Assembly: GCA_003552785.1 (NCBI GenBank)
Contig: PUOQ01000075.1
Coordinates: forward strand, 1 to 33,968
Length of the DNA: 33,968 bases
Source of the DNA: Dehalococcoidia bacterium
GTDB taxonomy: Bacteria; Chloroflexota; Dehalococcoidia; Dehalococcoidales; CSSed11-197
Reading direction: 5' to 3'
Shown piece by piece: positions 4,223 through 21,944 of this stretch; within the stretch, counting starts at the first letter, position 1, and the number at the start of each line of letters is the position of its first letter. Position numbers and translations under genes: made by a program. The notes under the pieces were generated by a model, which was given only the letters and a program-made list of their open reading frames with translations, searched no databases and was not told the DNA's origin.

Positions 4223-4585
4223 ATGAAAAAAGGGTTTTTGTTCACTGTAATTTCCCTGACTCTGGTGATGGTAGCGTTGGTTATTGGCGCATGCGTTCAG
4301 GGAGAGACAACCACACAAACGGTCACTCAAACCGAAACCTCAACAGTCACCTCGACTATCGAAACCACCGTAACACAGACTGTTACCGCCACATTAGCTC
4401 CCGGGGGTAATCCTCCGGAAACACCGCACTCCCTGGAACTGGATTATGGCCACTGTTTTAGTTGCCACATAATTCCACTGGGGCATGAGGGGAGGCACAC
4501 CGTTGAACATGAATGTGCCGGGTGTCATGTTGAGGCCCCACAATCCGAATGGACCTATGGAGAGGGTGCACCGGGCGCAGATTAA
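4223..4585 (+). CDS. lipoprotein with Thr-rich linker and two CxxCH heme-binding motifs
   Basis: 120 aa: MKKGFLFTVISLTLVMVALVIGACVQGETTTQTVTQTETSTVTS...; CFSCH and CAGCH; aaaggagacaaagc RBS before ATG. Confidence 0.8.
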   Translation: MKKGFLFTVISLTLVMVALVIGACVQGETTTQTVTQTETSTVTSTIETTVTQTVTATLAPGGNPPETPHSLELDYGHCFSCHIIPLGHEGRHTVEHECAGCHVEAPQSEWTYGEGAPGAD

Positions 4586-4605
4586 AATTATAACTCCTTA
4601 AGAAT

Positions 4606-4640
4606 AACTAAAAGGCCGGCAATTAGCCGGCCTTTTAGTT
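4606..4640 (+). terminator. intrinsic terminator-like hairpin after the diheme lipoprotein gene
   Basis: 15-bp perfect inverted repeat aactaaaaggccggc / gccggccttttagtt with 5-nt loop. Confidence 0.8.
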
Positions 4641-4729
4641 ATGTCAAGCACATGGTATTGACATGTTATAATACAGTCTTTTAGTATAAGATTTATAAAG
4701 AGCAGGGGTATTATATTTAAGGGGTCAGG

Positions 4730-7612
4730 TTGTTGGATGTCAAAATGAATACTCTTAAACCCGGCGACCATCTGTGTCTTTTGCATGAAAGTCATGATGA
4801 CTGGCTTTTAAGTATTGCCTCTTTTATCCATTCAGGCCTTACTTCGAATCAAAAATGCCTGTATATTACTGATTATCATACAGCTGATGAAATCAGAGAG
4901 CATTTGGCATTGAATGGTGTTGATATCAAAAGCCACCTCTTGAATGGACAACTCGCAATACTTGATTCAAAAGACGTGTATCTCATAGATGGTTGCTTCG
5001 ACTCGGGCCGGACCATAAGCCTTCTTCAAAATGAAACCCGTAAAGCCATGGATGAAGGCTATGATGCCCTGCGGGCTACCGGTGAGATGAGCTGGGCCAT
5101 AAAGAATATGCCCGGTTCAGACAAACTGGCCGAATACGAAGCAAACCTCAAATCAGGCCTTTTTGAAACTTCTGCCTGCATTGCAGTATGCCAGTATGAC
5201 CTTACCAGGTTCGAACCGGATATTTTAAAGGAAGTTCTAAAAACGCATCCGTATGTGATCTGGCGAGGAAAAATTCTTCAAAATTGTTATTATGACCCTG
5301 CGACGGCTCATTCCAGCTACAAAGACATGTATGATGAAATAATAAACTGCCTTTCACACCTTGAAACTCAACATGCCAGGCAAAAAGAACTTGCAGAAAG
5401 CGAAGAGCGATACCGCGCTCTTGTTGACCTGAGCTCTGAAGTCGGTGAAAGCATTCTGATGGTGCAGGATATCGAAGGCAAAGAAGGCGTTATTACCTTT
5501 GCCAGCGACCAATTTGTGCGTATTACTGGATATAGCAAGGATGAGTTAATCGGCAGGGCCGGCTTTGACTTTATATCACCCGAACACCGACAAGCCGCCC
5601 TTGAAAGACACCGCAGAAAAATGAAGGGGGAATCGCTTCCCGGGTTATATGAAATTAATATTGTATGCAAAGACGGCTCATATATAGATGTTGAACTTAC
5701 TTCAGCTGTTACAAGGTATAAAGACCGGCTTGCCAATGTTATATACCTCCGAGATATTTCTGAAAGAAAAGAACTTGAAAATAAACTTGCTGATGAGAAG
5801 GAAAAATACCAGACTATTTTTGAAGAAGCACCTATTGCCCTGTGGGAGCTAGATTATTCTGAACTGAAGAAATATTTCGACAGTTTAAAAAGCCAGGGAG
5901 TAACAGATTTTAAGAAGTATTTCGATGAAAACATGGAAGCGTATATCAGGGCTGTCAGAATATCAAAAATGGTCCGTTTTAACAAAGGGCACCGTGATCT
6001 TTGGGAGCTTGACGATGAAGACACTTTTGAGGATTACTGGGAAAAATCAAGAAAGTATTTTTTCAAAGGGTCCGATAACTACAAAGCTTTAATGGATGAT
6101 TTTGTCAGGCTGGCACATGGGCACACGAGTTTTACCAAAGAAGAGCCCGTGCAAACAACCAGGGGCAATAGGCGCTACATTCTCACCCGTTTTGCTATTG
6201 CTCCGGGTTATGAGCAAACATGGGCCAGGGTGTTTGCATCTTTAGTTGATATTACCGACCGAAAGACGGCAGAGTTAAAACTGCAGGAATCCGAACAAAA
6301 ATGGCACACCCTATTTCAGGGAGCGCCTGTTGCAATGTGGGAGCTCGATTATACCGAAGTAAAGTATTTTATCGAAAAACTGAAGGCCAGGGGAACAACA
6401 GATTTTAACCGATACTTTAAAGAAAATCTTGATGCAGTGAAATATTGCATTGAAATACCAAATAAGATAATGGACGTCAATGCTGCTGCGCACCGCCTAT
6501 TTGAAACAAGCAGCTTTTTAGAACTATCGGAGAAAATTAAAAGCGCTGGTGACACCGAAGAATCCGGCTACCAAAATTATCAACACATATTGGCTTCGCT
6601 TGCCGGAGGTGAAAATGAAATTGCATTCGAGAGCAATATTTGTACAGCAAAAGGGAATGGCAGGGTTGTATTAATCCATTATTCCGTCCCGCATGAACAG
6701 CAGCAAACTCTTTCCAGGGTATTTGTATCAGCAGTAGATATTACCGCCAGGAAACACGCCGAAGGTGAACTGAAGACATATCAAAAGAATCTTGAAAACA
6801 TGGTAAAAAAGAGAACTGAACAGCTAAAAAAAGAAATGGAGCAAAGAATACTTGCAGAAAAAAAATACAAAGATCTCTACGAGGAAGAATCACGATTAAG
6901 ACGGGAGATCGAAGCCGTTAGCGAACAAAGGGTGAGATATACGAGATCAATTGTCCACGAACTAAAAACCCCGCTTACTTCACTGGTTGTTGCAAATGAT
7001 CATTTAGCCGAAAATCTTTCAGGTGCGAATAGAGAATTTGCCCTGGCTGCCAGAAGAAGCACTTTGAGGCTGGAGCATAGAATCAATGAACTGCTGGATG
7101 TCTCCAAAGGTGAAGTTGGACTCCTTGAACTTGATCGCAACGAAATCAACCTGTACCAGATGTTAAAAGAACTTGTTAGAGATATAAAACCGCTGGTGCA
7201 TAAGGCAAACCAGCAATTAAAATTGAAAATTGATGACAACCTTCCATTTGCATATGCAGATGAGGGGAGAATTAACCAGGTCATTACCAATCTTGTAGAC
7301 AATGCCATAAAATTCAATTCACCCGGAGGCACGATTACAATTGAAGTTGGTTGTGAAAACGGAAATATAATGTTTTATGTTAAAGATCAGGGTCCGGGTA
7401 TAAAAGAAAGTGAATTGGAATTATTGTTTGAGCCTTACAAAGGGGTAAAGAGAGACAGTTCTACCGGTGGCCTTGGTTTGGGTTTACCCCTCTCAAAAAT
7501 GCTGGTTGAGCTGCACGGCGGTGATCTAAAATTTGAAACCGGAAAATCTAATGGTAGCTGTTTCTACTTTTCCATACCGTTAAAACAGTTCAACCGGCAA
7601 AATTTATTATGA
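4730..7612 (+). CDS. MEDS-domain multi-PAS sensor histidine kinase
   Basis: 960 aa with TTG start; N-terminal LKPGDHLCLLHESHDDWL...DEGYDALRATGEMSWA (MEDS/DcmR-sensory-like), PAS repeats, HisKA IVHELKTPLTSLV, HATPase DNAIKFNSPGGT...GLGLGLPLSK. Confidence 0.92.
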   Translation: MLDVKMNTLKPGDHLCLLHESHDDWLLSIASFIHSGLTSNQKCLYITDYHTADEIREHLALNGVDIKSHLLNGQLAILDSKDVYLIDGCFDSGRTISLLQNETRKAMDEGYDALRATGEMSWAIKNMPGSDKLAEYEANLKSGLFETSACIAVCQYDLTRFEPDILKEVLKTHPYVIWRGKILQNCYYDPATAHSSYKDMYDEIINCLSHLETQHARQKELAESEERYRALVDLSSEVGESILMVQDIEGKEGVITFASDQFVRITGYSKDELIGRAGFDFISPEHRQAALERHRRKMKGESLPGLYEINIVCKDGSYIDVELTSAVTRYKDRLANVIYLRDISERKELENKLADEKEKYQTIFEEAPIALWELDYSELKKYFDSLKSQGVTDFKKYFDENMEAYIRAVRISKMVRFNKGHRDLWELDDEDTFEDYWEKSRKYFFKGSDNYKALMDDFVRLAHGHTSFTKEEPVQTTRGNRRYILTRFAIAPGYEQTWARVFASLVDITDRKTAELKLQESEQKWHTLFQGAPVAMWELDYTEVKYFIEKLKARGTTDFNRYFKENLDAVKYCIEIPNKIMDVNAAAHRLFETSSFLELSEKIKSAGDTEESGYQNYQHILASLAGGENEIAFESNICTAKGNGRVVLIHYSVPHEQQQTLSRVFVSAVDITARKHAEGELKTYQKNLENMVKKRTEQLKKEMEQRILAEKKYKDLYEEESRLRREIEAVSEQRVRYTRSIVHELKTPLTSLVVANDHLAENLSGANREFALAARRSTLRLEHRINELLDVSKGEVGLLELDRNEINLYQMLKELVRDIKPLVHKANQQLKLKIDDNLPFAYADEGRINQVITNLVDNAIKFNSPGGTITIEVGCENGNIMFYVKDQGPGIKESELELLFEPYKGVKRDSSTGGLGLGLPLSKMLVELHGGDLKFETGKSNGSCFYFSIPLKQFNRQNLL

Positions 7613-8289
7613 ACATTTTAATAATCGATGATGATCCGGAAATAATCAACGTAATAAGCCTCACTCTCCGGGTGGGGTGGCCGGGTGTCGAGATAAATTC
7701 TGCCCGCCTGGGACAACATGGGCTGGACCTGGTGGAAACCAAGCAGCCAGACCTGGTTGTTCTCGATCTGGGCTTGCCGGACATTAGCGGCTTTGAAGTT
7801 CTAAAGCAAATAAGACTCTTCTCCGATGTCCCGGTGGTTATTTTAACTGTAAGCGAACAGGAAGCTGATGTTGTTAGTGGCCTTGAAATGGGTGCCAATG
7901 AATACATAACAAAACCCTTCAGGCAGATGGAATTACTCGCCAGGCTCAAATCTACATTGAGATTGCTTTATTCGCCGGAAAAATCGGAAAGTTTTATAAA
8001 AATCGGAACGTATAATTTTTTCCCTCAGATGCGCAAACTGGAAAGCAGGCACCAAAATATTTCTTTAACACCCACCGAAGCTACTATTTTACTTCATCTG
8101 GCAAGAAACCGGGGAAAAACAGTCACCTACGCAAGCATTGCTCAAAAATTGTGGGAGGGTGACTACCCTGGTTCTTCCGAAGCAATTCGGGTTTACTTGC
8201 GAAACTTAAGAAAGAAAGTTGAAAAGGACCCCGCTAACCCCAAAATTATAAAGACAAGCCCCGGAATTGGTTATTACCTCTTTTCTTAA
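7609..8289 (+). CDS. OmpR-family response regulator (REC + winged helix)
   Basis: 226 aa; DDDPEI, VVLDLGLPDISG, KPF; C-terminal winged helix. ATGA overlap with the kinase. Confidence 0.95.
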   Translation: MNILIIDDDPEIINVISLTLRVGWPGVEINSARLGQHGLDLVETKQPDLVVLDLGLPDISGFEVLKQIRLFSDVPVVILTVSEQEADVVSGLEMGANEYITKPFRQMELLARLKSTLRLLYSPEKSESFIKIGTYNFFPQMRKLESRHQNISLTPTEATILLHLARNRGKTVTYASIAQKLWEGDYPGSSEAIRVYLRNLRKKVEKDPANPKIIKTSPGIGYYLFS

Positions 8290-9360: not shown

Positions 9361-10158
9361 ATGCCACATGAAAGAAACAAAGATCCAAAAAACATTTCAA
9401 GACGGCAGTTCTTGCGTGATGCCGGAATTGTGGTTGGAGGAACTGCCGTTGGTTCTGCTTTTATCCTCACCGCCTGTGGTGAAGAAAAAGAGATAACCAA
9501 AACCGTAACCAAAACAGACACTGTTACAACCACTGCGCCGGGGACGACCGTCACACAAACAGCGACGGAAACAGCAACCAAATATGTTTGCCCGGTGTGC
9601 AATGAAGAGTTTGATTCACTCGATGAGTTAAAAAACCACTTTGAATCAGAGCACCCGGATGATAAAGAAATCAAAGATGAACTCGACCGGGTGGTTACCT
9701 ATACCGTAAATGGCCATCAGTACGTTTTACAGGTAGACCCTCAGGAAACTTTGCATGATGTACTGCGTGAAAAGTGCGGATATTTATCACTTAAGGATAT
9801 GTGCACTGGATGGGGTGCATGCGGCTCCTGTACTGTAATTGTTGAAGGTAAGCCAATTCTGGGTTGCATGGCTCTGGCAAGAGAGTTTGACGGGGCCAAC
9901 ATGGAGACGTCCGAGGGGCTAGCCCAGAAGAAGCATCCATTGATTGATACTTATGTAAAACACTATACCATGCAGTGTGGTTACTGCACACCGGGTTTCA
10001 TAGTAACTTCAAAGGCGCTTCTTGACATGAACCCAAACCCGACCGTAGAAGATATACGCGACAAGCTTGCAGGTAACCTGTGTCGCTGCGGCACCTACCC
10101 GCAGCACATACCGGCAGTTCAGGAAGCCGCAGAAATCCTGCAACAAGGAGGAGAATAA
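9361..10158 (+). CDS. Tat-exported lipoprotein: Thr-rich linker + C2H2 zinc-finger-like motif + xanthine dehydrogenase family [2Fe-2S] small subunit
   Basis: 265 aa; SRRQFLRDAGIVVGG Tat motif, ILTAC lipobox, YVCPVCNEEFDSLDELKNHFESEH (C-x2-C-x12-H-x4-H), then CTGWGACGSCTV, MQCGYCTPG and NLCRCGTYP iron-sulfur motifs. Confidence 0.93.
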   Translation: MPHERNKDPKNISRRQFLRDAGIVVGGTAVGSAFILTACGEEKEITKTVTKTDTVTTTAPGTTVTQTATETATKYVCPVCNEEFDSLDELKNHFESEHPDDKEIKDELDRVVTYTVNGHQYVLQVDPQETLHDVLREKCGYLSLKDMCTGWGACGSCTVIVEGKPILGCMALAREFDGANMETSEGLAQKKHPLIDTYVKHYTMQCGYCTPGFIVTSKALLDMNPNPTVEDIRDKLAGNLCRCGTYPQHIPAVQEAAEILQQGGE

Positions 10159-12530
10159 TGCCAGAGCAACCGTATCATACCAGAGAAGAGTTTAATTACG
10201 TTGGTAAGGCAGGCCTGAAGCGAAAAGATGGCCTGGAAAAGGCAGCAGGCACGGCCCTGTTTACAAGGGATGTGTACCTGCCGGGCATGCTTATAGCCAA
10301 GACCTTTGAATCTCCCTATGCACACGCAAAGATTGTAAGTATGGACACCAGCAAAGCCGAGGCTTATCCGGGTGTACATGCGGTGCTTCGTTATGATGAC
10401 CCCGAATTAGCCTATGAATTTGAATACCCATCATGGGGATGGTCTGCACAATATCAGCATCCGCTAAATCAAATTGCCCACTGGGCAGGCTGCCCCATGG
10501 GCTTTGCCATCGCCGCAGTCGATGAACAGACGGTAGACGAGGCCATGAAACTGGTTGAAATCGAATGGGAAATATTGCCCTTTGAGCTAGACTATGAACA
10601 ATCGGCCAAAGATGACGTTATACTTGAAGCCCACCGGGATATTGATACCAATATCCGTAGCGCCGAGGGGGTCATCGAACATGAACTGGGCGATGTGGAA
10701 AAGGGCATGCAGGAAGCAGATAACATTGTCAAGTTTACCTACATCGATGAAGAAGACACTTGGGGCGGGGTTGAAGCCCTTTCCTGCATTGCAGTATGGA
10801 GAGGGGACCACCTGGACATCTGGGTGCATAACCAGACACCCAACCCGGCTCAAATGCGGCTTGCCGGGTACCATCAATGGGTTCCAGTCGGATACTTCGT
10901 AAGAGTTGCTCCGCCTGTTAACCAGTATACTCTGGCAAACAAAATACATGTACATTCGCTGTATCAGGGCGCACAGTTTGGTGGCCCCAACTGGAATACA
11001 TGGTACTGCAACTATCCTTTAACTGCAGCATGGCTTGCCAAAAGGGCTCAAAAACCGGTTAAGCACATTCTTGACCGCAGCCATTTTGAAAACCGTGGCT
11101 ATGATGAAGCGGTGCATTATATGGAAGTCGGTTTTAAAAATGACGGTACAATTACCGCTCTTAAATCTTTGGACTATGGATCCACCATTGACTTCCCCTT
11201 TAAAGTCGGTAAAGGCACCGGTGTTCCCAATTATTACGATACGGTAATTGTGCCTTATGTCAACAAAGGTCCAAAATCCTGCTACCGCCATGGCATGAAG
11301 GAATGCGGCGGGCTTAATTTACCCTATTCAATTGTTGCCGGAGAACTGGGAATGCCAATGACTGAAGTAGCCCTCAAGAATGACGGTTGCTATGGCAATA
11401 GCATGGAGTGGATAAACGAAAATGTTAAAGCCCAGTACGGCTGGACGCGTGACAGCTTGAAAGAAGTCATTGAAGCCGGTAAAGAAGCAATCGGATGGGA
11501 TGAAAAGTGGCACCTGCCAGGAGAGAAAAAACTGGATAATGGCAGGTACCATGGTATTGGGCTTGCTTTTTCTCACAACTGGGAAGTCGACCCCAATACT
11601 TATTTTCAGCCTAACCAGGCATGCGTTGCCATCCAGCGAACCGAAGGCTCGGTAAAACTGATTGCACGCCACTCAGACGGTGGCTGGACCGGGGAAACTT
11701 CATACTGTCAGATTGTAGCTGATGAACTTGGGGCTAAATACGATGACGTTGAAATTCGCCCCTTTGATGATGTTAAATTTGAACTGAAACAGGGCATGGG
11801 CTCCTGCGGGCTGATATGCAGTTCTGTATTTCTGGTGGAAGCTGCACGTAATTGCAAAAAGAAACTGCTTGAAATCTGTACTGAGCCGACCGGCCCTGGT
11901 GGAAGACAAATATTCCCGGGATTAACACCCGATGACCTGGAAGTAAAAGACAGCGTAGTTTTTGAAAAAGCCAATCCGGATAATAAGAAGACCTTCTATG
12001 AGGTATGCCAGGCCGACTGGCAATTCCACGACCCTGCAATCGGATGGGCGGCCAACCGGCGGCACGGCATGGAAATTTGGAACCTGTTGCGGCAGGCTAC
12101 ATTCATGGAAGTAGAAGTCGACACCGAAACCGGTGAAGTTATCATCAAAAAGGTTGTTAACGTCAACGACGTCGGCAAATGCGTTACACCTGAGTCGGTA
12201 AAGGGCCAGCAATATGGTGGCTCCTATATGGGTATAGGCAACTCCAGGAACGAAGAAGTTCTCTACGACACTCAGACAGGATTCCAGATAAATGACAACC
12301 TGATTGACTACAAGTGGTTTTCCTTTAACGACATTGAAGGCCCAATGGAACAGATAATTATAGAGACCGGTATGGGCTATGGGGCCTATGGTATGAGTGG
12401 CTGCAGCGAAGTTGTTGGCGCGTTGATGGCTACTTCTACCAGTGACGCAATATTTAATGCTACTGGCAAGCGCGTTACCCACTTCCCAACTACACCGGAC
12501 CGGGTGCTAAAAGCACTTGGGAAGATATAG
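10158..12530 (+). CDS. xanthine dehydrogenase / aldehyde oxidase family molybdopterin-binding large subunit
   Basis: Starts MPEQPYHTREEFNYVGKAGLKRKDGLEKAAGTALFTRDV after GGAGGA RBS, overlapping the upstream stop by 1 nt; C-terminal SGCSEVVGALMATSTSDAIFNATGKRV matches the family GxGE...A-I-x-x-ATG region. Confidence 0.93.
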   Translation: MPEQPYHTREEFNYVGKAGLKRKDGLEKAAGTALFTRDVYLPGMLIAKTFESPYAHAKIVSMDTSKAEAYPGVHAVLRYDDPELAYEFEYPSWGWSAQYQHPLNQIAHWAGCPMGFAIAAVDEQTVDEAMKLVEIEWEILPFELDYEQSAKDDVILEAHRDIDTNIRSAEGVIEHELGDVEKGMQEADNIVKFTYIDEEDTWGGVEALSCIAVWRGDHLDIWVHNQTPNPAQMRLAGYHQWVPVGYFVRVAPPVNQYTLANKIHVHSLYQGAQFGGPNWNTWYCNYPLTAAWLAKRAQKPVKHILDRSHFENRGYDEAVHYMEVGFKNDGTITALKSLDYGSTIDFPFKVGKGTGVPNYYDTVIVPYVNKGPKSCYRHGMKECGGLNLPYSIVAGELGMPMTEVALKNDGCYGNSMEWINENVKAQYGWTRDSLKEVIEAGKEAIGWDEKWHLPGEKKLDNGRYHGIGLAFSHNWEVDPNTYFQPNQACVAIQRTEGSVKLIARHSDGGWTGETSYCQIVADELGAKYDDVEIRPFDDVKFELKQGMGSCGLICSSVFLVEAARNCKKKLLEICTEPTGPGGRQIFPGLTPDDLEVKDSVVFEKANPDNKKTFYEVCQADWQFHDPAIGWAANRRHGMEIWNLLRQATFMEVEVDTETGEVIIKKVVNVNDVGKCVTPESVKGQQYGGSYMGIGNSRNEEVLYDTQTGFQINDNLIDYKWFSFNDIEGPMEQIIIETGMGYGAYGMSGCSEVVGALMATSTSDAIFNATGKRVTHFPTTPDRVLKALGKI

Positions 12531-12544
12531 GAGGCTGAAAAAAG

Positions 12545-13522
12545 ATGAAATTGCATAAATTCAATCATGTTAACCCAAAAAGCGTAGATGAAGCTGTATC
12601 GATCCTGGGAAGAAATGGAGGTAAAGCCTGTGTAAATGCCGGTGGTACCGACATGGTCGGTGTGTTGCGGCTAAAGATACTACCCGAATACCCTGATGTG
12701 GTTGTGAACCTGAAATCTATTTCGCCAAGCATGAACTATATAGAAGAAGACGGAAATGTCTTAAAAATAGGTGCTCTAACCCTGCTTGACGATATAGCCA
12801 ATAACGAGATAGTAAAGGAAAAATACACAGCTCTTGCCCAGGCAGCGCATAAAACCGCATCTCCACATATCCGGGTTATGGGCACCATAGCCGGAAACCT
12901 TTGCCAGCACAACCGCTGCTGGTATTACTGGAAAAAAGACAATATTTTTAATTGTGCACGGAAAGACACAACAGGACTGTGTTACGCAACTGCCGGGCAG
13001 AACAAATTCCACTCTGTGTTTGGAGCAGCGGCGGGTTGCCTGGCATTTCATCCAAGCGATATGGCACCGGCCCTGGTGGCCCTGAACGCCGATGTTGTAA
13101 CTTCCAAAAGAACCATTCCGATTGATGAGTTTTTCACCGTGAAAGTTAGTCCGAGTGGCGCTGGCTCTACAGTACTTGAAAGTGACGAGGTTGTCACTGA
13201 AATTCAGGTGCCGCAACCTGCTTCAGGTGTAAAGAGTGCATTTGTGAAATTTGCCCTTAGAAAATCAATTGACTTCCCGGTAGCCAATGCTGCTGCTGCC
13301 ATTGGCGGTGAAGAAGCTCGAATCTGCATGGGGGCCGTTGCCCCCAATCCCAGGCGGGCAACCGGGGCTGAGGATTCAATCCGCGGTCAATCTATAAATG
13401 AATCCAATGCCGATGCGGCCGCTGCCGAGGCGGTACGTAATGCTATGGGCCTAGCACACAATCGATGGAAAATTCAGATTGCAAGAGCTATGGTAAAAAG
13501 AGCAATTCTCGGTTGCGCATAG
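12545..13522 (+). CDS. FAD-binding subunit of xanthine dehydrogenase / CO dehydrogenase family, with Cys-rich insert
   Basis: 325 aa; NAGGTDMVGVLRLKI, MGTIAGNLCQHNRCWYYWKKDNIFNCARKDTTGLCYA, HPSDMAPALVALNADV. Confidence 0.92.
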   Translation: MKLHKFNHVNPKSVDEAVSILGRNGGKACVNAGGTDMVGVLRLKILPEYPDVVVNLKSISPSMNYIEEDGNVLKIGALTLLDDIANNEIVKEKYTALAQAAHKTASPHIRVMGTIAGNLCQHNRCWYYWKKDNIFNCARKDTTGLCYATAGQNKFHSVFGAAAGCLAFHPSDMAPALVALNADVVTSKRTIPIDEFFTVKVSPSGAGSTVLESDEVVTEIQVPQPASGVKSAFVKFALRKSIDFPVANAAAAIGGEEARICMGAVAPNPRRATGAEDSIRGQSINESNADAAAAEAVRNAMGLAHNRWKIQIARAMVKRAILGCA

Positions 13523-13611: not shown

Positions 13612-14184
13612 ATGAATTTAACGAGCGGGTATTCGGGCATGCTTAAAAGCTGGCGATTCTGGTTTTTTAATGCGCTATTATTATCTGCTGTAATTATGAT
13701 GGTTGTATCATTCATGGGCCCCTGGTGGACGTCACGCATCGAGCCGGCTCCCGGGCAACCATCGGCTATCGGTATGGTAATAGAAATTTTTCAATGGGGT
13801 ATTCCGGAAGGTCCACACGTAGAACATTATATGGAAGATGTAACTCCGGATTATCAGATTGCGCTGGCGCGTATTTTTCTTGCCGGAAGCATTGCGCTGG
13901 CTTTTGCCAGTTCCTGGTTGCGGGGTTTGGCTGGCAAATTAATTTTGGGGCTTGTGGGTGCAGCCTGGGTGGGTTATGCACTCGGCGCTTATTATCTGAT
14001 TTCCAGCCGTACTGCTGAGTACGGGATGCCACTCCAAGGAAAAGAAACTGTATATGATTTTGTGTTTATCGTCGTTGCAACTTCTGGCTTTGAATTTGAA
14101 TACTACCTTGCCTATGCAGCCGGTTTGCTGTGTATATTGCTGGCGGTTATGCGGAGTTTAATTACCGGGAAATTATTAAAATAA
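13612..14184 (+). CDS. integral membrane protein of unknown function
   Basis: 190 aa with about four hydrophobic segments (FWFFNALLLSAVIMMVVSFMG; IALARIFLAGSIALAFASSWL; LILGLVGAAWVGYALGAYYL; YLAYAAGLLCILLAVM). Confidence 0.6.
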   Translation: MNLTSGYSGMLKSWRFWFFNALLLSAVIMMVVSFMGPWWTSRIEPAPGQPSAIGMVIEIFQWGIPEGPHVEHYMEDVTPDYQIALARIFLAGSIALAFASSWLRGLAGKLILGLVGAAWVGYALGAYYLISSRTAEYGMPLQGKETVYDFVFIVVATSGFEFEYYLAYAAGLLCILLAVMRSLITGKLLK

Positions 14185-14221
14185 AATATTATTACAATTG
14201 TATATAACTGGAGGGTTCTCG

Positions 14222-15328
14222 ATGTCTCTTATGTGGCAAAACAAATTACATGAATTGAAAAATTACATTAACAACAATCCTGAAATCATGGTAACGAAAA
14301 ACAAAACGGTAATCTCTGCGGAGTACAAGGTTAGATTTTACGAGCTTTTCAATGAAACGCGTAAAAGCTTCATTTTAGATTTGTTCAATGAAGAATTAGA
14401 TACTTCATACCAGCTTGCGCACAGTTTAAATGAAAGCATCGAAAACCTTAAAACTCAACTTGATTTGGATGAAGTTAATTTCCCAGATGGGATTAGTTGG
14501 TTCGTTCAAGACCCTTCAAAAGGCATGGCAAAAATTTTATGGGAACCTCTTTTTGATTTAATAGCCGATGATATAAGCATGGAAAAGTTTGAAAACATAA
14601 GCAAGGAAAAAGTCAAAAAGATCTTTGATACCAGTTTTTATGAAATGTATGAAGACTGGCTGGAGGTATCAATACTTGAAAAATTAGATGCCAGGCAGTT
14701 TCTAAGGGTGCTTGCCCCCACTATCATTGGATCTTTTGGTCATGCCCAGGGTTATGTAATGCATCTTGACGTAAAACCAGTTATTCCTCCAGAGGAATCA
14801 AAGGTGTTGTCACTTCGCCACCGTTTTGACTTCAATTCATTTTCTGTTCCTGATTTTATTGTATATTCTAAACATTTTCGAAAGTACGTTTCCGTTAAAG
14901 CAAGGCATCATGTGGCCAGGTGGATAGCTCATGAACCGAGTCAAAACAGGGAGTGGTTACCGTTAAGTGAGCTTGAAAATGTTTTGGGTGATGGCTATTT
15001 ATTGGTTTATATGGACGATAACCCCCTTAATCTTGCGCTTGTTAACGACGTTAATGTATTGTGTCGGCCGGACATGGTAATTGAGTTCAGGGAAAAAGAG
15101 GGGTGGTATTCTGCTGATGAGATAGAACTTATTGCCCGCCGGTCTGAACTGCTCCAGCCAAAGCTGGGCACTTTTATCGTATACAGGTGTCCGGGTGAAA
15201 ATATATCAAACAGCCAGATGGGTGATGGCTTTACCTTTCTTGAGGCCGGCATAGAAAAAAGCAGGCTGCAAAACATTATCAGGGTGTTAGAGGAAAGCGC
15301 CCTGAAACATATTTCCCGGCCTCAGTAG
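14222..15328 (+). CDS. conserved-looking protein of unknown function (368 aa)
   Basis: Long ORF with ggaggg RBS before ATG 14222 (track start 14198 is upstream of the RBS). No family recognised. Confidence 0.75.
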   Translation: MSLMWQNKLHELKNYINNNPEIMVTKNKTVISAEYKVRFYELFNETRKSFILDLFNEELDTSYQLAHSLNESIENLKTQLDLDEVNFPDGISWFVQDPSKGMAKILWEPLFDLIADDISMEKFENISKEKVKKIFDTSFYEMYEDWLEVSILEKLDARQFLRVLAPTIIGSFGHAQGYVMHLDVKPVIPPEESKVLSLRHRFDFNSFSVPDFIVYSKHFRKYVSVKARHHVARWIAHEPSQNREWLPLSELENVLGDGYLLVYMDDNPLNLALVNDVNVLCRPDMVIEFREKEGWYSADEIELIARRSELLQPKLGTFIVYRCPGENISNSQMGDGFTFLEAGIEKSRLQNIIRVLEESALKHISRPQ

Positions 15329-15389: not shown

Positions 15390-16394
15390 ATGAATGATAA
15401 TCATTTCAACTACCACCAGGCCTTCAGTATCAATTTGGGGCTGTTCTCTCCCTCCGAGCAGCAGCGTTTAAGGGAGGCGAGAATAACCATTGCCGGCACC
15501 GGCGGTGCCGGCGGTGTGATAGCTATTATGCTGGCAAGAAGCGGGGTTGAAAACTTTACCCTGATAGACTACGACACCTATTCAATCACTAACATCAACC
15601 GCCAGATCGGCTGTTTTGTCGATACCCTGGGCCAGTACAAAGCTGAAGTGATAAAAAATGAAATTCTGCGCATAAACCCCGGAGCAAATATAACCTGTAT
15701 CAATAGGGCAATACCCCTTGAAGAGTTAAAGACACTGCTAGACGAAACCGACGTATATTTCTCCGAAGCCGACGATCTTGCCTATTCCACCTGCTCTTTG
15801 ATAGCCGCCCAGAAGAAAAAGGTCATGGCTATCTCGTATATGCCCATGGGCATGGCGGGCTACATCATGGTGTTTCCACCCGGTCTGCCCCGCGTATATG
15901 ATCCGACCGACATGTTCGGCGGCCCCAAAGGTTTAAATTACGATGAACTAAAAGAATTCCAGGGGGACCCGGTAAACAGAAGCGGTCGGCGCTGGCATAT
16001 CACTCAGGGTAAAATGAGAATTGAGTGGTTCAAAAAATGGTGCCGTGGAGAAAACACCCTTACCCAGCTGTGCCCGGCGGTCTGGACAGGTACTGCCCTG
16101 GCAAGCATTGAAGCTGTTAAGTATATTACCGGCAAGTGGAAAAGGGTAAAGGCGCCCAAAATGTGGCAGATCGAACTTGCCGAAAACCGCATCAGGGTTA
16201 AGAAATTCCGCCGCCGGACGCGTATTTTTTCAAAGTACATCTACTGGGCGGTAAACATCAAATGGTTGGGAATTGGTCAAAGAATAAGGCAATTTACCCT
16301 TAAGTCCTTGGAAAAGGACCTGGAAAAGATGCAGAGGCAGGAAGAGCAGGGTAAAACACCCCGCCTTCCCTTCATGTGGAAACACATTATCTAG
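15390..16394 (+). CDS. ThiF/MoeB/E1-like adenylyltransferase family protein (paralog A, intact ATP motif)
   Basis: 334 aa; ITIAGTGGAGGVIAIMLARSGVENFTLIDYDTYSITNINRQ, GQYKAEVIKNEILRINPGANI, DVYFSEADDLAYS. Confidence 0.85.
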   Translation: MNDNHFNYHQAFSINLGLFSPSEQQRLREARITIAGTGGAGGVIAIMLARSGVENFTLIDYDTYSITNINRQIGCFVDTLGQYKAEVIKNEILRINPGANITCINRAIPLEELKTLLDETDVYFSEADDLAYSTCSLIAAQKKKVMAISYMPMGMAGYIMVFPPGLPRVYDPTDMFGGPKGLNYDELKEFQGDPVNRSGRRWHITQGKMRIEWFKKWCRGENTLTQLCPAVWTGTALASIEAVKYITGKWKRVKAPKMWQIELAENRIRVKKFRRRTRIFSKYIYWAVNIKWLGIGQRIRQFTLKSLEKDLEKMQRQEEQGKTPRLPFMWKHII

Positions 16395-16498: not shown

Positions 16499-17365
16499 AT
16501 GCTATCTGATGCACCAAAAATGGAAAAAGGATATGTACTCCCCGGCACCAGCATCATACTTGAAAAAGGCTGGCTGGAGCCATACAACCGGGCTGTGGGG
16601 CAGAAACACCGAGGCAAAAGCCTTCAAGCACCGGTGTCCCCGGTGGCCGTTGCCGGCAAGGGGCTTATCGCCCTCACCCGCCCCTTGAATCTACCCGGGG
16701 GTGTCGTCCATACCCATGCCCTCATTAACAGCTTGTCGCCGGTTTACACCGGAGAGGAGCTTTTATGCCAGGGAAGGATAAGCCGGGTTATCAGCCGGGG
16801 CAGCGTTAAGCTGGCAACCGTTTCTTTTGAGATCATGAAACCCGATCACCAAAAGGTGATTTGCGGCCACATGACCTATCTGCTTCCCGGCTCAAACGTT
16901 AAGAACTCTACTTTCACGGGAGATAAAACATACGGCAACGGCAGCATTAATGCCTGTGGCAGGGCTTTGCCTCCTGTATCACGGGTGGTTACCCATAGGG
17001 ATGTAGAATCTTATGCCCTTTTCAGCGGTGACTACAACCCTCTGCACCTTAACAGACTTTTTGCCGGCAAGACGGCTTTCGGCAACATAATTGTACATGG
17101 TATGCTGGTTCTGGGCCTGGTAGACGAGTTTCTGGCGGGCACATTCGGCAAGCACTATACCGACAACGGCTCTCTGGAAGCGCGTTTCAAAAAACCGGTC
17201 CTGCCCGGCCAGAAGATTCTCCTAAAGGGACAGGCAAATGATAATGCGCCCGGGCCTTCGGATAGGGACGCTGCCTGCGAGGTGCAGGTTAGCAGTCAAA
17301 ACAATGAACTCTTGCTTTCGGTAGCGGCCGAATTCAGCACATCATCGAAAGGAGAAGCATGGTAA
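16499..17365 (+). CDS. MaoC-like dehydratase (double hot-dog)
   Basis: 288 aa; YALFSGDYNPLHLNRLFAGKTAFGNIIVHGMLVLGLVDEF hydratase motif. Confidence 0.85.
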   Translation: MLSDAPKMEKGYVLPGTSIILEKGWLEPYNRAVGQKHRGKSLQAPVSPVAVAGKGLIALTRPLNLPGGVVHTHALINSLSPVYTGEELLCQGRISRVISRGSVKLATVSFEIMKPDHQKVICGHMTYLLPGSNVKNSTFTGDKTYGNGSINACGRALPPVSRVVTHRDVESYALFSGDYNPLHLNRLFAGKTAFGNIIVHGMLVLGLVDEFLAGTFGKHYTDNGSLEARFKKPVLPGQKILLKGQANDNAPGPSDRDAACEVQVSSQNNELLLSVAAEFSTSSKGEAW

Positions 17366-17366
17366 T

Positions 17367-17627
17367 ATGCCAGACCCGGTCGAAGAAAAACTAAAGCAGA
17401 TCGCCCTTAGAGTAACCCGCAAACAGGAGGCTGATTTTAGCGGCGATACCACCTTTGAAGACCTTGAAGCCGATTCCATGGACAGAGTCCAGATACTGGT
17501 GTCTCTCGAAGAGGAGTTTGACATCGAAATACCCGATGAAGAAGTGGCAGAAATAAACGATATGAAAACTTTTGTTGATTATGTAAAAACCAAAATCGCC
17601 CGGAAGGAGGGTTCAGCCGGTGAGTAA
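17367..17627 (+). CDS. acyl carrier protein
   Basis: 86 aa; DLEADSMDRVQILVSLEEEFDIEIPDEEVAEINDMKTFVDYV with phosphopantetheine Ser in DSM. Confidence 0.93.
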   Translation: MPDPVEEKLKQIALRVTRKQEADFSGDTTFEDLEADSMDRVQILVSLEEEFDIEIPDEEVAEINDMKTFVDYVKTKIARKEGSAGE

Positions 17628-18864
17628 CATGCCCCGGGTAGTCATAACCGGTCTGGGCGTGGTAAGCCCGCTGGGCTCAACGCTTGATGAGTTCTGGCAT
17701 AAACTGACCTCTGGCACCAGCGCCATCGGCAAAATAACCCACTTTGATGCTGAGAAGTTCCCGGTAAAAGTGGCCGCCGAGGTCAAGGACTTCGACCCGG
17801 TAAATTATATGAAGATGAAGCGTGCCGACCGGACCGGCCGTTGTTCCCAGTTTGCCATTGCCGCCACCCGGATGGCTGCCGACCATGCCCGGCTTGATAT
17901 GTCAGTTGAGGAACCTGAAAGGATCGGTGTTGTTGTCGGCACCAGCGGCATGCCGGAACTGTTGGCAGAGCAGGCAAACATTATCGAGCGCAAGGGCCCC
18001 AACCGGGTCGACCCGCTGGTGGTGAGCAAGTACCGGGCCAGCATGGTGCCTGCCCATGTCGGCCTTGAAGTGGGAGCAAAGGGCATAAACACCAGCATAA
18101 ACAGTGCCTGCAACAGCGGCAATGACTCTCTCGGCAATGCCTATAACCTGTTACGGCTGGGGTATGCAGACCTTATTTTAGCCGGCGGGGCCGGTGCCAA
18201 TATAACCCCTCTGGCCATTGCCGCTACCGGCCGCATCGGGGCCCTGTCCCGGGAAGAAGACCCGGATAAAGCATGCCGCCCGTTTGACCTTAACCGCAGC
18301 GGCTTTGTCTACGGCGAAGGAGCGGCCATGCTGGTACTGGAAACCCTGGAGCATGCCCAAAACCGCCGGTCTGAGATACTGGCTGAAATCACAGGCGCGG
18401 GCTGGTCGTTTGATGCCGTCAGCGAAACCTCCCCCGGCATGGCAGAAAGGGCCCGGGCCATGAGCCTTGCATTAAGGGATGCCGGTATTTCCCCCGGAGA
18501 CGTAGATTACATCAACGCCCACGGCACCGGCACCAAACTGAACGATGTTTCCGAGACCCGGGCCATAAAGTCGGTGTTTGGTACTGGTGCCTATAGCCTG
18601 CCGGTAAGTTCAATCAAATCAATGATAGGACATCTGGGATGTGCCGCCGGCAGCGTTGAAGCGGTAGCGGTGGTGATGAGTATTTTGAATAGTACCATAC
18701 CCCCGACCATAAACTACCAGACACCCGACCCGGAGTGCGACCTTGACTACGTTCCCAATGTATCAAGACGGCAAAGCCTTGATGTTTGCCTGTCCAATTC
18801 ATTCGGCCTGGGCGGTCAAAACTGCAGTCTTATTTTCAGGCGGTTTAAGCAAAATGGAACTTAA
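17620..18864 (+). CDS. beta-ketoacyl-ACP synthase (KAS II / FabF family)
   Basis: 414 aa; SINSACNSGNDSLG (Cys), INAHGTGTKLND (His), SIKSMIGHLGCAAG (Lys/His), GLGGQN. Confidence 0.94.
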   Translation: MSNMPRVVITGLGVVSPLGSTLDEFWHKLTSGTSAIGKITHFDAEKFPVKVAAEVKDFDPVNYMKMKRADRTGRCSQFAIAATRMAADHARLDMSVEEPERIGVVVGTSGMPELLAEQANIIERKGPNRVDPLVVSKYRASMVPAHVGLEVGAKGINTSINSACNSGNDSLGNAYNLLRLGYADLILAGGAGANITPLAIAATGRIGALSREEDPDKACRPFDLNRSGFVYGEGAAMLVLETLEHAQNRRSEILAEITGAGWSFDAVSETSPGMAERARAMSLALRDAGISPGDVDYINAHGTGTKLNDVSETRAIKSVFGTGAYSLPVSSIKSMIGHLGCAAGSVEAVAVVMSILNSTIPPTINYQTPDPECDLDYVPNVSRRQSLDVCLSNSFGLGGQNCSLIFRRFKQNGT

Positions 18865-19594
18865 TAACCGGGTAGCGCTGGTTACCGGCGCCTCCAGAGG
18901 TATAGGCCGGGCAATTGCTGTAAAGCTGGCCCGGAGCGGGTGCCGTGTGGCCATAAATTACAATACCAGCCAGAAGGAGGCAGAAGAGGTAAAGGCAGAA
19001 ATTAACCGTTCTGGAGGCACCGCGGTGCTTGTAAAGGCCGATGTTACCAGTTCCACCGCTGTAAAGGCCATGTTTGGTGAGGTCAACCGCTGTTTTTCCA
19101 CTGTTGATATACTGGTAAACAATGCCGGCACCGTCAGAAATGATCTTGTTTTGAGAATGAAAGAGAAAGACTGGGATGAAGTGCTGGACACCAACCTGAA
19201 GGCGGCATTCTTATGCACCCGGCAGGCATTAAGGAGGATGATAAACCAGGAGTGGGGCCGGATTATAAACATTGCCTCGGTTGCAGCCCAGCGCGGCAAT
19301 TACGGCCAGTGCAATTATTCCGCATCCAAAGGCGGCCTGGTTTCCTTTACCCGGAGTGTTGCCCGGGAAGCAGGCTCAAGAAATATCACCGTAAACGCGG
19401 TTGCACCCGGACTCATTCAAACCGAAATGCTTGAGACGGTTCCCGAAAACCACCTCAAGGAGGTGCTAAACCGCCAGGCAATACCCCGGCTCGGCACCCC
19501 CCGGGACGTAGCTAGCCTGGTTTCATTTCTGGCCTCTGAGGAGGCAGGTTTTATAACGGCCCAGGTTATCAATGTCGACGGCGGTTATATTTAA
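18854..19594 (+). CDS. SDR-family 3-oxoacyl-ACP reductase (FabG-like)
   Basis: MELNNRVALVTGASRGIGRAIAVKLARSG..., NNAG, YSASK catalytic motif. ATG 18854 overlaps the KAS stop; track start 18743 is inside the KAS gene. Confidence 0.93.
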   Translation: MELNNRVALVTGASRGIGRAIAVKLARSGCRVAINYNTSQKEAEEVKAEINRSGGTAVLVKADVTSSTAVKAMFGEVNRCFSTVDILVNNAGTVRNDLVLRMKEKDWDEVLDTNLKAAFLCTRQALRRMINQEWGRIINIASVAAQRGNYGQCNYSASKGGLVSFTRSVAREAGSRNITVNAVAPGLIQTEMLETVPENHLKEVLNRQAIPRLGTPRDVASLVSFLASEEAGFITAQVINVDGGYI

Positions 19595-19644: not shown

Positions 19645-20649
19645 ATGAATCAAAACGTTGACTTTGGTTACAACACGGCTTTCTATATTAATTCAGGTCT
19701 TGTGACCTCCTGCCAGCAGGAAAGGTTGAAGCAGGCCCGGATAACCATCCACGGCATGTTTGCCGGTGGCGCCATCGCCATAATGCTGGCTCGCTCTGGA
19801 ATTGGCAACTTCACTTTAATAGATCACAGGCGCTACAGCTTGGGTGACATCAACCGGGACGCGGGCTGCTATGCCGACGCCCTCGGTTTATTAAAAGCAG
19901 AAGTTATTGCCGGTCAGATAAAAAGAATAAACCCCGGAGCCAGTGTACGAGCGGTTACACAAAGGCTTAACCTCGAAGAAACCCGGCAGTATATAAAAGG
20001 CTGTGACGTTTATTTTGCCCAGTCCAAAGATATAGCCTTCAGCTGCCATGCGCTGATAATAGCCCAGGAGCTAGGCGTGTTTGGCATTACCTTTATGCCC
20101 AGCGGCATGACAGGCTATGTAGAAGCATATCCCCCCGGAATGAAAAAGGTGGTAGACCCGGCGGCATTATTTGGGGCCCCGGCGGGAATGGGCTATAAAA
20201 AACTCTACCACTTTTTGCGAAACCCTCTTAACAGGTGCGGACGTCGGTGGCATATAACCGAGGGAAAGTGGCGGATTGACTGGTTCGTGCGCTGGCGAGA
20301 CAGAAAGGTGCCCGAAGCCCAGCTGTGCCCCAATCTGTGGCTGGGAGCCGGGCTGGCAAGCATGGAAGCTTTAAAGTATATCACCCGGACATGGCCGGTG
20401 GTAAAGGTGCCCAAAATGTGGCATTTGGTTCCCGCTGAAAACCGGATAAAAGCCGAAAAGTTCCGCCGCCGGTCATGGTGGTTTGAAAAAATAATATACC
20501 GTGTCTTTAACATAGGCTTTTGGGGAATAGGAAAAAAATATCAAAAATACACTGCCAGAAGGCTTTTTAACGAACTGGAGCATATGCAAAAGCAGGAAAA
20601 CCAGGGCATTGAAGTAAAGCCCCCTTTTATGTGGCGCCACTTAATATAG
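19645..20649 (+). CDS. ThiF/E1-like paralog B with degenerate nucleotide-binding motif (candidate pseudo-E1)
   Basis: 334 aa, same length as 15390-16394 and alignable end to end, but GTGGAGG is GMFAGG and the SEADD region is AQSKD. Confidence 0.8.
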   Translation: MNQNVDFGYNTAFYINSGLVTSCQQERLKQARITIHGMFAGGAIAIMLARSGIGNFTLIDHRRYSLGDINRDAGCYADALGLLKAEVIAGQIKRINPGASVRAVTQRLNLEETRQYIKGCDVYFAQSKDIAFSCHALIIAQELGVFGITFMPSGMTGYVEAYPPGMKKVVDPAALFGAPAGMGYKKLYHFLRNPLNRCGRRWHITEGKWRIDWFVRWRDRKVPEAQLCPNLWLGAGLASMEALKYITRTWPVVKVPKMWHLVPAENRIKAEKFRRRSWWFEKIIYRVFNIGFWGIGKKYQKYTARRLFNELEHMQKQENQGIEVKPPFMWRHLI

Positions 20650-20678: not shown

Positions 20679-21944
20679 ATGAAGATAGTTCTTGTCTCAA
20701 TCGGCACCCTTGGAGATGTCTACCCGTATGCGGCACTTGGCAGAGGCTTGAAAGATGCCGGACATGAGGCAGTAATAGCTACCCATGCACCATTCGAGCC
20801 CTTTATAAGGCAAAAAGGACTTTTATTTTCACCGCTGGCCGGGGATCCGGTACAGTGGCTTGAAAACGGTGAACTGCTCTCTCTGATACAAAAAAGCACC
20901 AATTTTGTAAGCTGGCTGGCAAAGCTGAGGGAGCTTTCCGATGCAATTATTCCTGATATACTTGGATCGTGCCGGGAATCATGCCGGGGTGCTGAGGCCA
21001 TCATATATTCGCCCCTGGCCTGGGCAGGGTATTCAATTGCCGAGGAGATGCGGGTAAAATCAATCGCTGCATGCCTGCAGCCCCTGACTCCCACTGGCAA
21101 GTTCCCATCTGCCTGGTTTCCAGCTAATAGCCTTAAGGTGCCATTATTTAACCGGCTCAGTCACAAGCTGGCAAGGCAGATTTACTGGCAATTCTTCCGG
21201 CCCTACATTAACCCGTGGAGAAAGCATTCACTGCTCCTGCCTCCCCTGCCCTTAATGGGCCCATATGCCGGTGAAACATGGAAACGTCAGCCATTCCTGT
21301 ATGGTTTCAGCCCCCATGTTATTCCAAAGCCGCCTGACTGGCCGGAAAATGCCCACGTTACCGGCTGGTGGCTTTTTGAGTCTGACCCGGGCTACGTGCC
21401 CCCATCACCGCTGGAAGACTTCATCAGCTCTGGCAACGCCCCGATATATGCAGGTTTCGGCAGCATGCCCCAGCGGAACCCGGAACAACTGCTTGACACA
21501 ATACTGCTGGCAACAGAAGCATCAGGAGTGCGGGTGGTTATTCAGTTGAAGGCGGAAGGCCTGCCAGAAGGAAGAATAACGGACAACCTTTTCAACGCAG
21601 GCTGGGTGGATCACACCTGGTTGTTTCCACGCATGAAGGCCGTTGTCCATCACGGAGGTGCTTCTTCTTTTGCCAGCAGTCTTTATGCAGGCGTTCCGGT
21701 AATTACCGTACCCCATGCCTGGGATCAGTACTTCTGGGGCAGGCGGATTGCACAGCTCGGCCTGGGCCCCTCTCCGATAAAGCGGGCGGATTTAAACAAA
21801 GACCGGCTAACAAGGGCAATACGCATGGCGGTTACAGGCCCCGGGTATCTTAAGCGCTGTTCTGAATTATCTGGCAAATTAAGGGCCGAGAACGGAGTTG
21901 CCAGTGCGGTTGGAGTGATTGAAAAGTACCTTAAAGTGGATTGA
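20679..21944 (+). CDS. GT1-family (UGT/sterol-glucosyltransferase-like) glycosyltransferase
   Basis: 421 aa; MKIVLVSIGTLGDVYPYAALGRGLKDAGHEAVIAT, PIYAGFGSMP, GWVDHTWLFPRMKAVVHHGGASSFASSLYAGVPVITVPHAWDQYFWGRRI. Confidence 0.93.
   Translation: MKIVLVSIGTLGDVYPYAALGRGLKDAGHEAVIATHAPFEPFIRQKGLLFSPLAGDPVQWLENGELLSLIQKSTNFVSWLAKLRELSDAIIPDILGSCRESCRGAEAIIYSPLAWAGYSIAEEMRVKSIAACLQPLTPTGKFPSAWFPANSLKVPLFNRLSHKLARQIYWQFFRPYINPWRKHSLLLPPLPLMGPYAGETWKRQPFLYGFSPHVIPKPPDWPENAHVTGWWLFESDPGYVPPSPLEDFISSGNAPIYAGFGSMPQRNPEQLLDTILLATEASGVRVVIQLKAEGLPEGRITDNLFNAGWVDHTWLFPRMKAVVHHGGASSFASSLYAGVPVITVPHAWDQYFWGRRIAQLGLGPSPIKRADLNKDRLTRAIRMAVTGPGYLKRCSELSGKLRAENGVASAVGVIEKYLKVD

Follow-up and report, generated by a model that had tools for sequence, protein, structure and literature searches.

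Eukaryotic E1 enzymes pair one active half with one inactive half. Whether two separate bacterial genes might arrive at a similar division of labor is the question raised by the window analyzed here, a stretch of DNA of 33,968 nucleotides from a Dehalococcoidia bacterium that encodes two related E1-like proteins, which we refer to as paralogs A and B. An earlier note on this DNA had proposed that A is an active enzyme, that B is a pseudo-enzyme, and that the two form an asymmetric heterodimer.

A Pair of ThiF-Fold Paralogs

A and B are paralogs. The earlier note had described both as 334 residues long and alignable throughout, and this agrees with the coordinates (Table 1) and with an end-to-end alignment in which 169 of 335 positions are identical (50%, E=1e-124). 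Both proteins match the Pfam ThiF family (PF00899), with 114.1 bits for A and 62.7 bits for B at a cut-off of 28.1, and the best NCBIfam match of each is NF006077 (PRK08223), at 150.8 and 99.4 bits, respectively, which does not reach the cut-off of 266. In the window genome, which is 92% complete, A and B are the sole ThiF-family proteins found. Their C-terminal half is private to A and B and carries a conserved GRRWHI..GK motif, and in every A and B row the last ~84 residues have a basic composition (16-23 Lys plus Arg versus 6-11 Asp plus Glu). A C-terminal motif of B, NPLNRCGRRWHIT.GKW, is invariant across all B sequences and differs from that of A.

Table 1. Features of the A/B locus and its surroundings in the window
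Feature	Coordinates	Strand	Remarks
MEDS-PAS histidine kinase and response regulator	4730..8289	+	kinase/regulator pair also in G506
2Fe-2S subunit, exported xanthine-dehydrogenase-family enzyme	9361..10158	+	TAT-like N-terminus read by eye
Molybdopterin subunit, xanthine-dehydrogenase-family enzyme	10080..12530	+	
FAD subunit, xanthine-dehydrogenase-family enzyme	12545..13522	+	
190-aa hydrophobic protein, probably membrane-anchored	13612..14184	+	neighbor of exported redox enzymes
376-aa protein, no Pfam match	14198..15328	+	homologue by same neighbor in G506; similar ORF in G001
Paralog A, ThiF-fold (E1-like), 334 aa	15390..16394	+	usual nucleotide-pocket residues except trans Arg (Ile14)
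A glycine loop GTGGAGG, aa 36-42	15495..15515	+	G36, G38, G39, G41, G42 invariant in 4 A lineages
MaoC-type dehydratase, double hotdog	16499..17365	+	two adjacent ORFs in G001 (L007 1818-2650)
Acyl carrier protein (ACP)	17367..17627	+	PF00550, 4.7e-12
FabF-type ketosynthase	17620..18864	+	
FabG-type ketoreductase	18854..19594	+	
Paralog B, ThiF-fold, 334 aa, degenerate nucleotide pocket	19645..20649	+	
B shortened loop GMFAGG, aa 37-42	19753..19770	+	one residue short
B Asp68	19846..19848	+	Asn in A and all ThiF/MoeB relatives examined
B Lys128 (MoeB Asp130 position)	20026..20028	+	codon aaa; Lys in this species only
EryCIII/UDPGT-type glycosyltransferase	20679..21944	+	similar ORF after B in L008

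Distribution and Gene Neighborhood

Full-length relatives of A and B were found in 5 of 156 Dehalococcoidales genomes, all five of which carry both, and no genome among those found has only A or only B. The five are the window genome, G001 from the same genus, G474 (by its position the L008 locus), and G505 and G506 from another family. Sampling the class (393 genomes) and the phylum (400 genomes) revealed no further pair, and a scan of ~85,000 species genomes picked up no loci other than those of G001 and L008, using patterns that would miss divergent pairs such as those of G505 and G506. The named relatives are Dehalococcoidales and Dehalococcoidia MAGs. Viral contigs searched for A/B relatives yielded none, and plasmids yielded distant ThiF proteins only, for example a Desulfovibrio-type ThiF protein beside PEP-CTERM genes. 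In a phylogenetic tree all A sequences form one clade and all B sequences another (support 99/100), which dates the duplication to before three families diverged, barring a transfer of the entire cassette from one family to another.

Genes for an ACP, a ketosynthase and a ketoreductase accompany the A/B pair in five of five genomes. In the window, L008, G505 and G506, A and B enclose these genes, which make up a mini fatty-acid pathway, and in G001 two contigs hold the ends of the same order, A-dehydratase-ACP-ketosynthase and ketosynthase-ketoreductase-B. The dehydratase, a second reductase and the glycosyltransferase are optional members of this cassette; in L008 a second short-chain reductase (4395-5180), absent in the window, is placed between the ACP and the ketosynthase.

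The surroundings of the cassette also recur. Xanthine-dehydrogenase-type subunits, together with the 190-aa hydrophobic and 376-aa-type proteins, precede the cassette in the window and lie next to it in G505 and G506, and in G001 a FAD-type subunit, a hydrophobic protein and a similar unknown-family protein stand in a row. In L008, a reductive dehalogenase relative occupies the place of the molybdoenzyme; the Dehalococcoidales are known for organohalide respiration. Relatives of the hydrophobic protein also lie beside iron-sulfur and molybdopterin-type subunits (types read from sequence) in G017 and G039, which have no A/B pair. Taken together, these neighborhoods suggest that the cassette goes with exported redox systems.

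The partners of the hydrophobic family (window 13612-14184; L069, L070, L072-L074) are exported enzymes of the xanthine-dehydrogenase, reductive dehalogenase and apparent DMSO-reductase types, and this family may be a common membrane anchor of exported redox enzymes. It is adjoined in three lineages by a family of 355-393-residue proteins (window 14198-15328, L058 7884-9065, L068 1777-2841), for which the window and G506 copies tested gave no Pfam match. Residues 75-98 of the 2Fe-2S subunit of the window (9361-10158) form a C2H2 zinc-finger-like stretch, which separates the exported N-terminus from the 2Fe-2S domain and is missing from the G506 homologue.

Residues Lost and Retained in the Nucleotide Pocket of B

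Four A sequences, four B sequences and six PRK08223-like (ThiF-type) relatives were compared residue by residue. At 27 positions the four A sequences and the six relatives are invariant, and 17 of these are kept in every B. Only four of the 27 are lost in every B, namely G38 (deleted), G39 (replaced by Phe or Ser), N68 (replaced by Asp) and Q72 (replaced by Asp or Glu), and all four fall within the nucleotide-pocket glycine loop and the N-x-N-R-Q motif. The contrast between loops GTGGAGG in A and GMFAGG in B, drawn in the earlier note, is indeed seen at residues 36-42 and 37-42, respectively. In A, the MoeB pocket residues G41, R73, K86 and D130 are matched in four lineages by G39, R71, K84 and D128. 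B retains D60, R71 and K84 in four of four lineages and D128 in three of four, and the equivalents of these residues serve ATP in MoeB and UBA1 (PMC12355090, PMC9378703). The interpretation given in the earlier note is supported in part.

A second contrast drawn in the earlier note, Asp in A versus Lys in B at the Asp site of MoeB, is confined to one species. Profile alignments to 1jw9 place A D128 and B K128 at the position of MoeB Asp130, and the difference is real in the window, where A reads SEADD and B reads AQSKD. The other three B lineages have Asp at this site (AQSDD in G001, AQADD in L008, SQADD in G505 and G506), and the Asp-to-Lys change, being private to the window species, was rejected as a family-wide marker of B. 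The case for a degenerate site consequently rests instead on the loop, N68 and Q72. B is a paralog that has been conserved without decay, and part of its nucleotide pocket is missing in all of its lineages.

With regard to quaternary structure, the solved ThiF-fold relatives MoeB, ThiF, MccB and PaaA are dimers (PMC12355090, PMC12250964), so that the real alternatives for this locus are A-A plus B-B, or A-B. The constant pairing, the arrangement in one gene block and the one-sided loss of pocket residues favor A-B, to which we would assign a roughly even chance. Formation of such a heterodimer is plausible on present evidence from sequence. In the model that we propose, A and B would be ancient paralogs forming an asymmetric E1-like dimer, within which A would bind ATP and then adenylate a carboxylate, and B, its fold kept and its own ATP site impaired, would probably bind substrate, carrier protein or A. 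The more specific proposal, that A in this heterodimer adenylates an acyl carboxylate for the ACP-ketosynthase-ketoreductase cassette, could equally well prove right or wrong.

Because B keeps much of the pocket, the strongest rival to the A-B heterodimer holds that A and B are separate homodimers that diverged after duplication, B having a functional yet re-shaped site for a nucleotide or another cofactor and serving another step of the same pathway. The retention of D60, R71, K84 and, for the most part, D128 in B is consistent with this idea, as are the invariant and B-specific NPLNRCGRRWHIT.GKW motif, which suggests a function of B's own, and the homodimeric state of characterized stand-alone bacterial ThiF-fold enzymes (PMC12355090, PMC12250964). 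Nevertheless, the deletion of a loop Gly and the N68D and Q72D/E changes in every B fit ordinary ATP binding poorly, and we regard separate homodimers as possible, though on balance rather doubtful.

Absence of the trans Arginine

In MoeB, an N-terminal Arg touches the ATP of the partner subunit, and in UBA1 it is supplied by the inactive half (PMC9378703). The corresponding position is Ile in eight of eight A and B rows, as against Arg in six of six relatives and in two MoeB-like proteins, so that A itself has Ile where a MoeB/ThiF-type enzyme would direct an Arg to its partner's triphosphate. In addition, the Asp at position 125 is replaced by Ser or Ala in the A and B rows. With Ile in both A and B, the textbook mechanism in which an inactive half lends an Arg is inapplicable, and A may be no standard adenylating enzyme.

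Since both A and B are without this Arg, it is conceivable that neither adenylates and that the two are E1-fold scaffold or substrate-binding proteins, holding an acyl or peptide substrate for the cassette enzymes. The change at position 125 would agree with such a role, and peptide-binding scaffold proteins of the E1 fold are known, as exemplified by ocin-ThiF (F) of azole-peptide clusters (PMC4603692). However, the remaining pocket residues of A are kept in four lineages, which would be unexpected for a pure scaffold, and this explanation appears unlikely to us. Should A and B instead function as an adenylating heterodimer, the chemistry would have to be completed in some other way, for example via the C-terminal GRRWHI..GK motif.

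The Candidate Substrate

No ThiS/MoaD-family protein was detected in the window genome, where a divergent one could escape detection. Combined with the constant presence of an ACP gene with the pair, this would make an acyl carboxylate or acyl-ACP the likelier target. In the proposed A-B heterodimer, the carboxylate would most likely be that of a small acyl molecule or an acyl-carrier product, and less probably a ubiquitin-like C-terminus, and the pair would serve the ACP-ketosynthase-ketoreductase cassette that accompanies it. The basic character of both C-terminal parts would be compatible with docking of an acidic ACP.

MoaE is present in the window genome and in several relatives in which, likewise, no MoaD/ThiS-family protein was detected. 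As the search for ThiF-family proteins in the window genome gave A and B alone, and a molybdoenzyme is their neighbor, A might be the genome's substitute for MoeB, activating MoaD and so providing molybdopterin for that enzyme. Yet in four relatives (G002, G004, G006 and G009) MoaE is accompanied by no ThiF-family match, which indicates that the order manages without a ThiF-family protein; the L008 pair adjoins a reductive dehalogenase relative and no molybdoenzyme; and the failure to detect MoaD/ThiS speaks against this role as well, leaving it very improbable.

Constraint on B

B is under constraint. Between G505 and G506, the sole usable pair because synonymous sites are saturated in between-species dN/dS comparisons, B has codon differences of which six are synonymous and two nonsynonymous; A has none. 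The decay of B in relatives that the earlier note had named as counting against its proposal was not encountered, B being intact in five genomes. That B is a decaying, pseudogene-like copy was rejected as barely credible: the two same-genus species share 65% identity in B as against 75% in A, but the B ORF is intact and of similar length, it carries the same lesions in four lineages, and its synonymous changes are in excess.

Comparison with Known E1 and ThiF-Fold Systems

Separate A-only and B-only profiles were run against PDB sequences. Within UBA1 of yeast and of human, the A profile fitted best to the active half (residues ~400-550) and the B profile to the N-terminal inactive half (residues ~14-160). 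The A profile matched SAE2 with 52 bits, and the B profile matched SAE1 with 27.9 versus 25.2 bits for SAE2, a gap of only 2.7 bits. AlphaFold monomer models of the two proteins have mean pLDDT values of 65 and 64, with the C-terminus below 50. Structure searches with both models were led by AclA, ThiF, MccB and MoeB, followed by SAE1 for B and by UBA3 as well as SAE1 for A, and, given the modest confidence of the models, they add little past the fold. The resemblance of B's degeneration to that of eukaryotic inactive halves is probably convergent.

In terms of novelty, active/inactive E1 enzymes in bacteria are already known in single-chain form from BilD (PMC11354881), as are E1-fold scaffolds. 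Our literature search for a link between ThiF proteins and ketosynthases or Dehalococcoidia returned nothing relevant, and what appears to be new in the literature searched is a pair encoded by two genes, one partner being degenerate, that is conserved in several families and linked to an ACP pathway. The broadest form of our proposal, a two-gene bacterial E1-like heterodimer in which a catalytic and a degenerate subunit together activate an acyl carboxylate for an ACP-dependent pathway, with a tie to exported redox enzymes of the Dehalococcoidales, is put forward tentatively and is more likely wrong than right. If true, the active/inactive E1 architecture would have evolved independently outside protein conjugation, and, as a separate bacterial case with free-gene subunits and a lipid-type pathway, the pair would point to subunit degeneration as a recurrent route from homodimer to heterodimer. 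The A/B pair would also provide a simple system for testing what a dead half contributes, and the locus directs attention to a biosynthetic cassette that is so far undescribed and is associated with exported redox enzymes.

The likeness to SAE1-UBA2, NAE1-UBA3 and the IAD/AAD halves of UBA1 consists in a common fold with one pocket intact and one degenerate. Compared with these canonical eukaryotic E1 enzymes, A and B have no visible catalytic Cys domain or ubiquitin-fold domain, no Ubl partner was found, the trans Arg is absent from both, and B keeps much of its pocket. In the bacterial BilD/BubCD system, too, the E1 combines an active and an inactive half (PMC11354881), but BilD unites them in a single chain, has a Cys domain and acts on a Ubl, whereas A and B are two genes. 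Unlike BilD- and Cap2-type systems, A and B have no E2, JAB or Ubl genes beside them, their neighbors being of FAS and redox types, and their PADLOC E1-E2 matches span the adenylation fold only.

Among stand-alone enzymes, proteins of the PRK08223/PRK14851 type (NF006077) are related and were found across the order, but they have a different C-terminal half and no partner paralog was seen. MccB and PaaA, homodimers acting on peptides (PMC12250964), share the fold and have an N-terminal peptide-binding domain, whereas A and B have no extra N-terminal domain; no precursor peptide was seen among the ORFs examined at this locus. AclA (9egb), which has the same fold, ranks first in the structure searches with either model. 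The adenylation fold is likewise common to MoeB, ThiF and TcdA, of which TcdA and MoeB matched A and B best among PDB sequences. The homodimers of MoeB and ThiF each contain two active sites, whereas A and B are without the Arg and possess a private C-terminal half.
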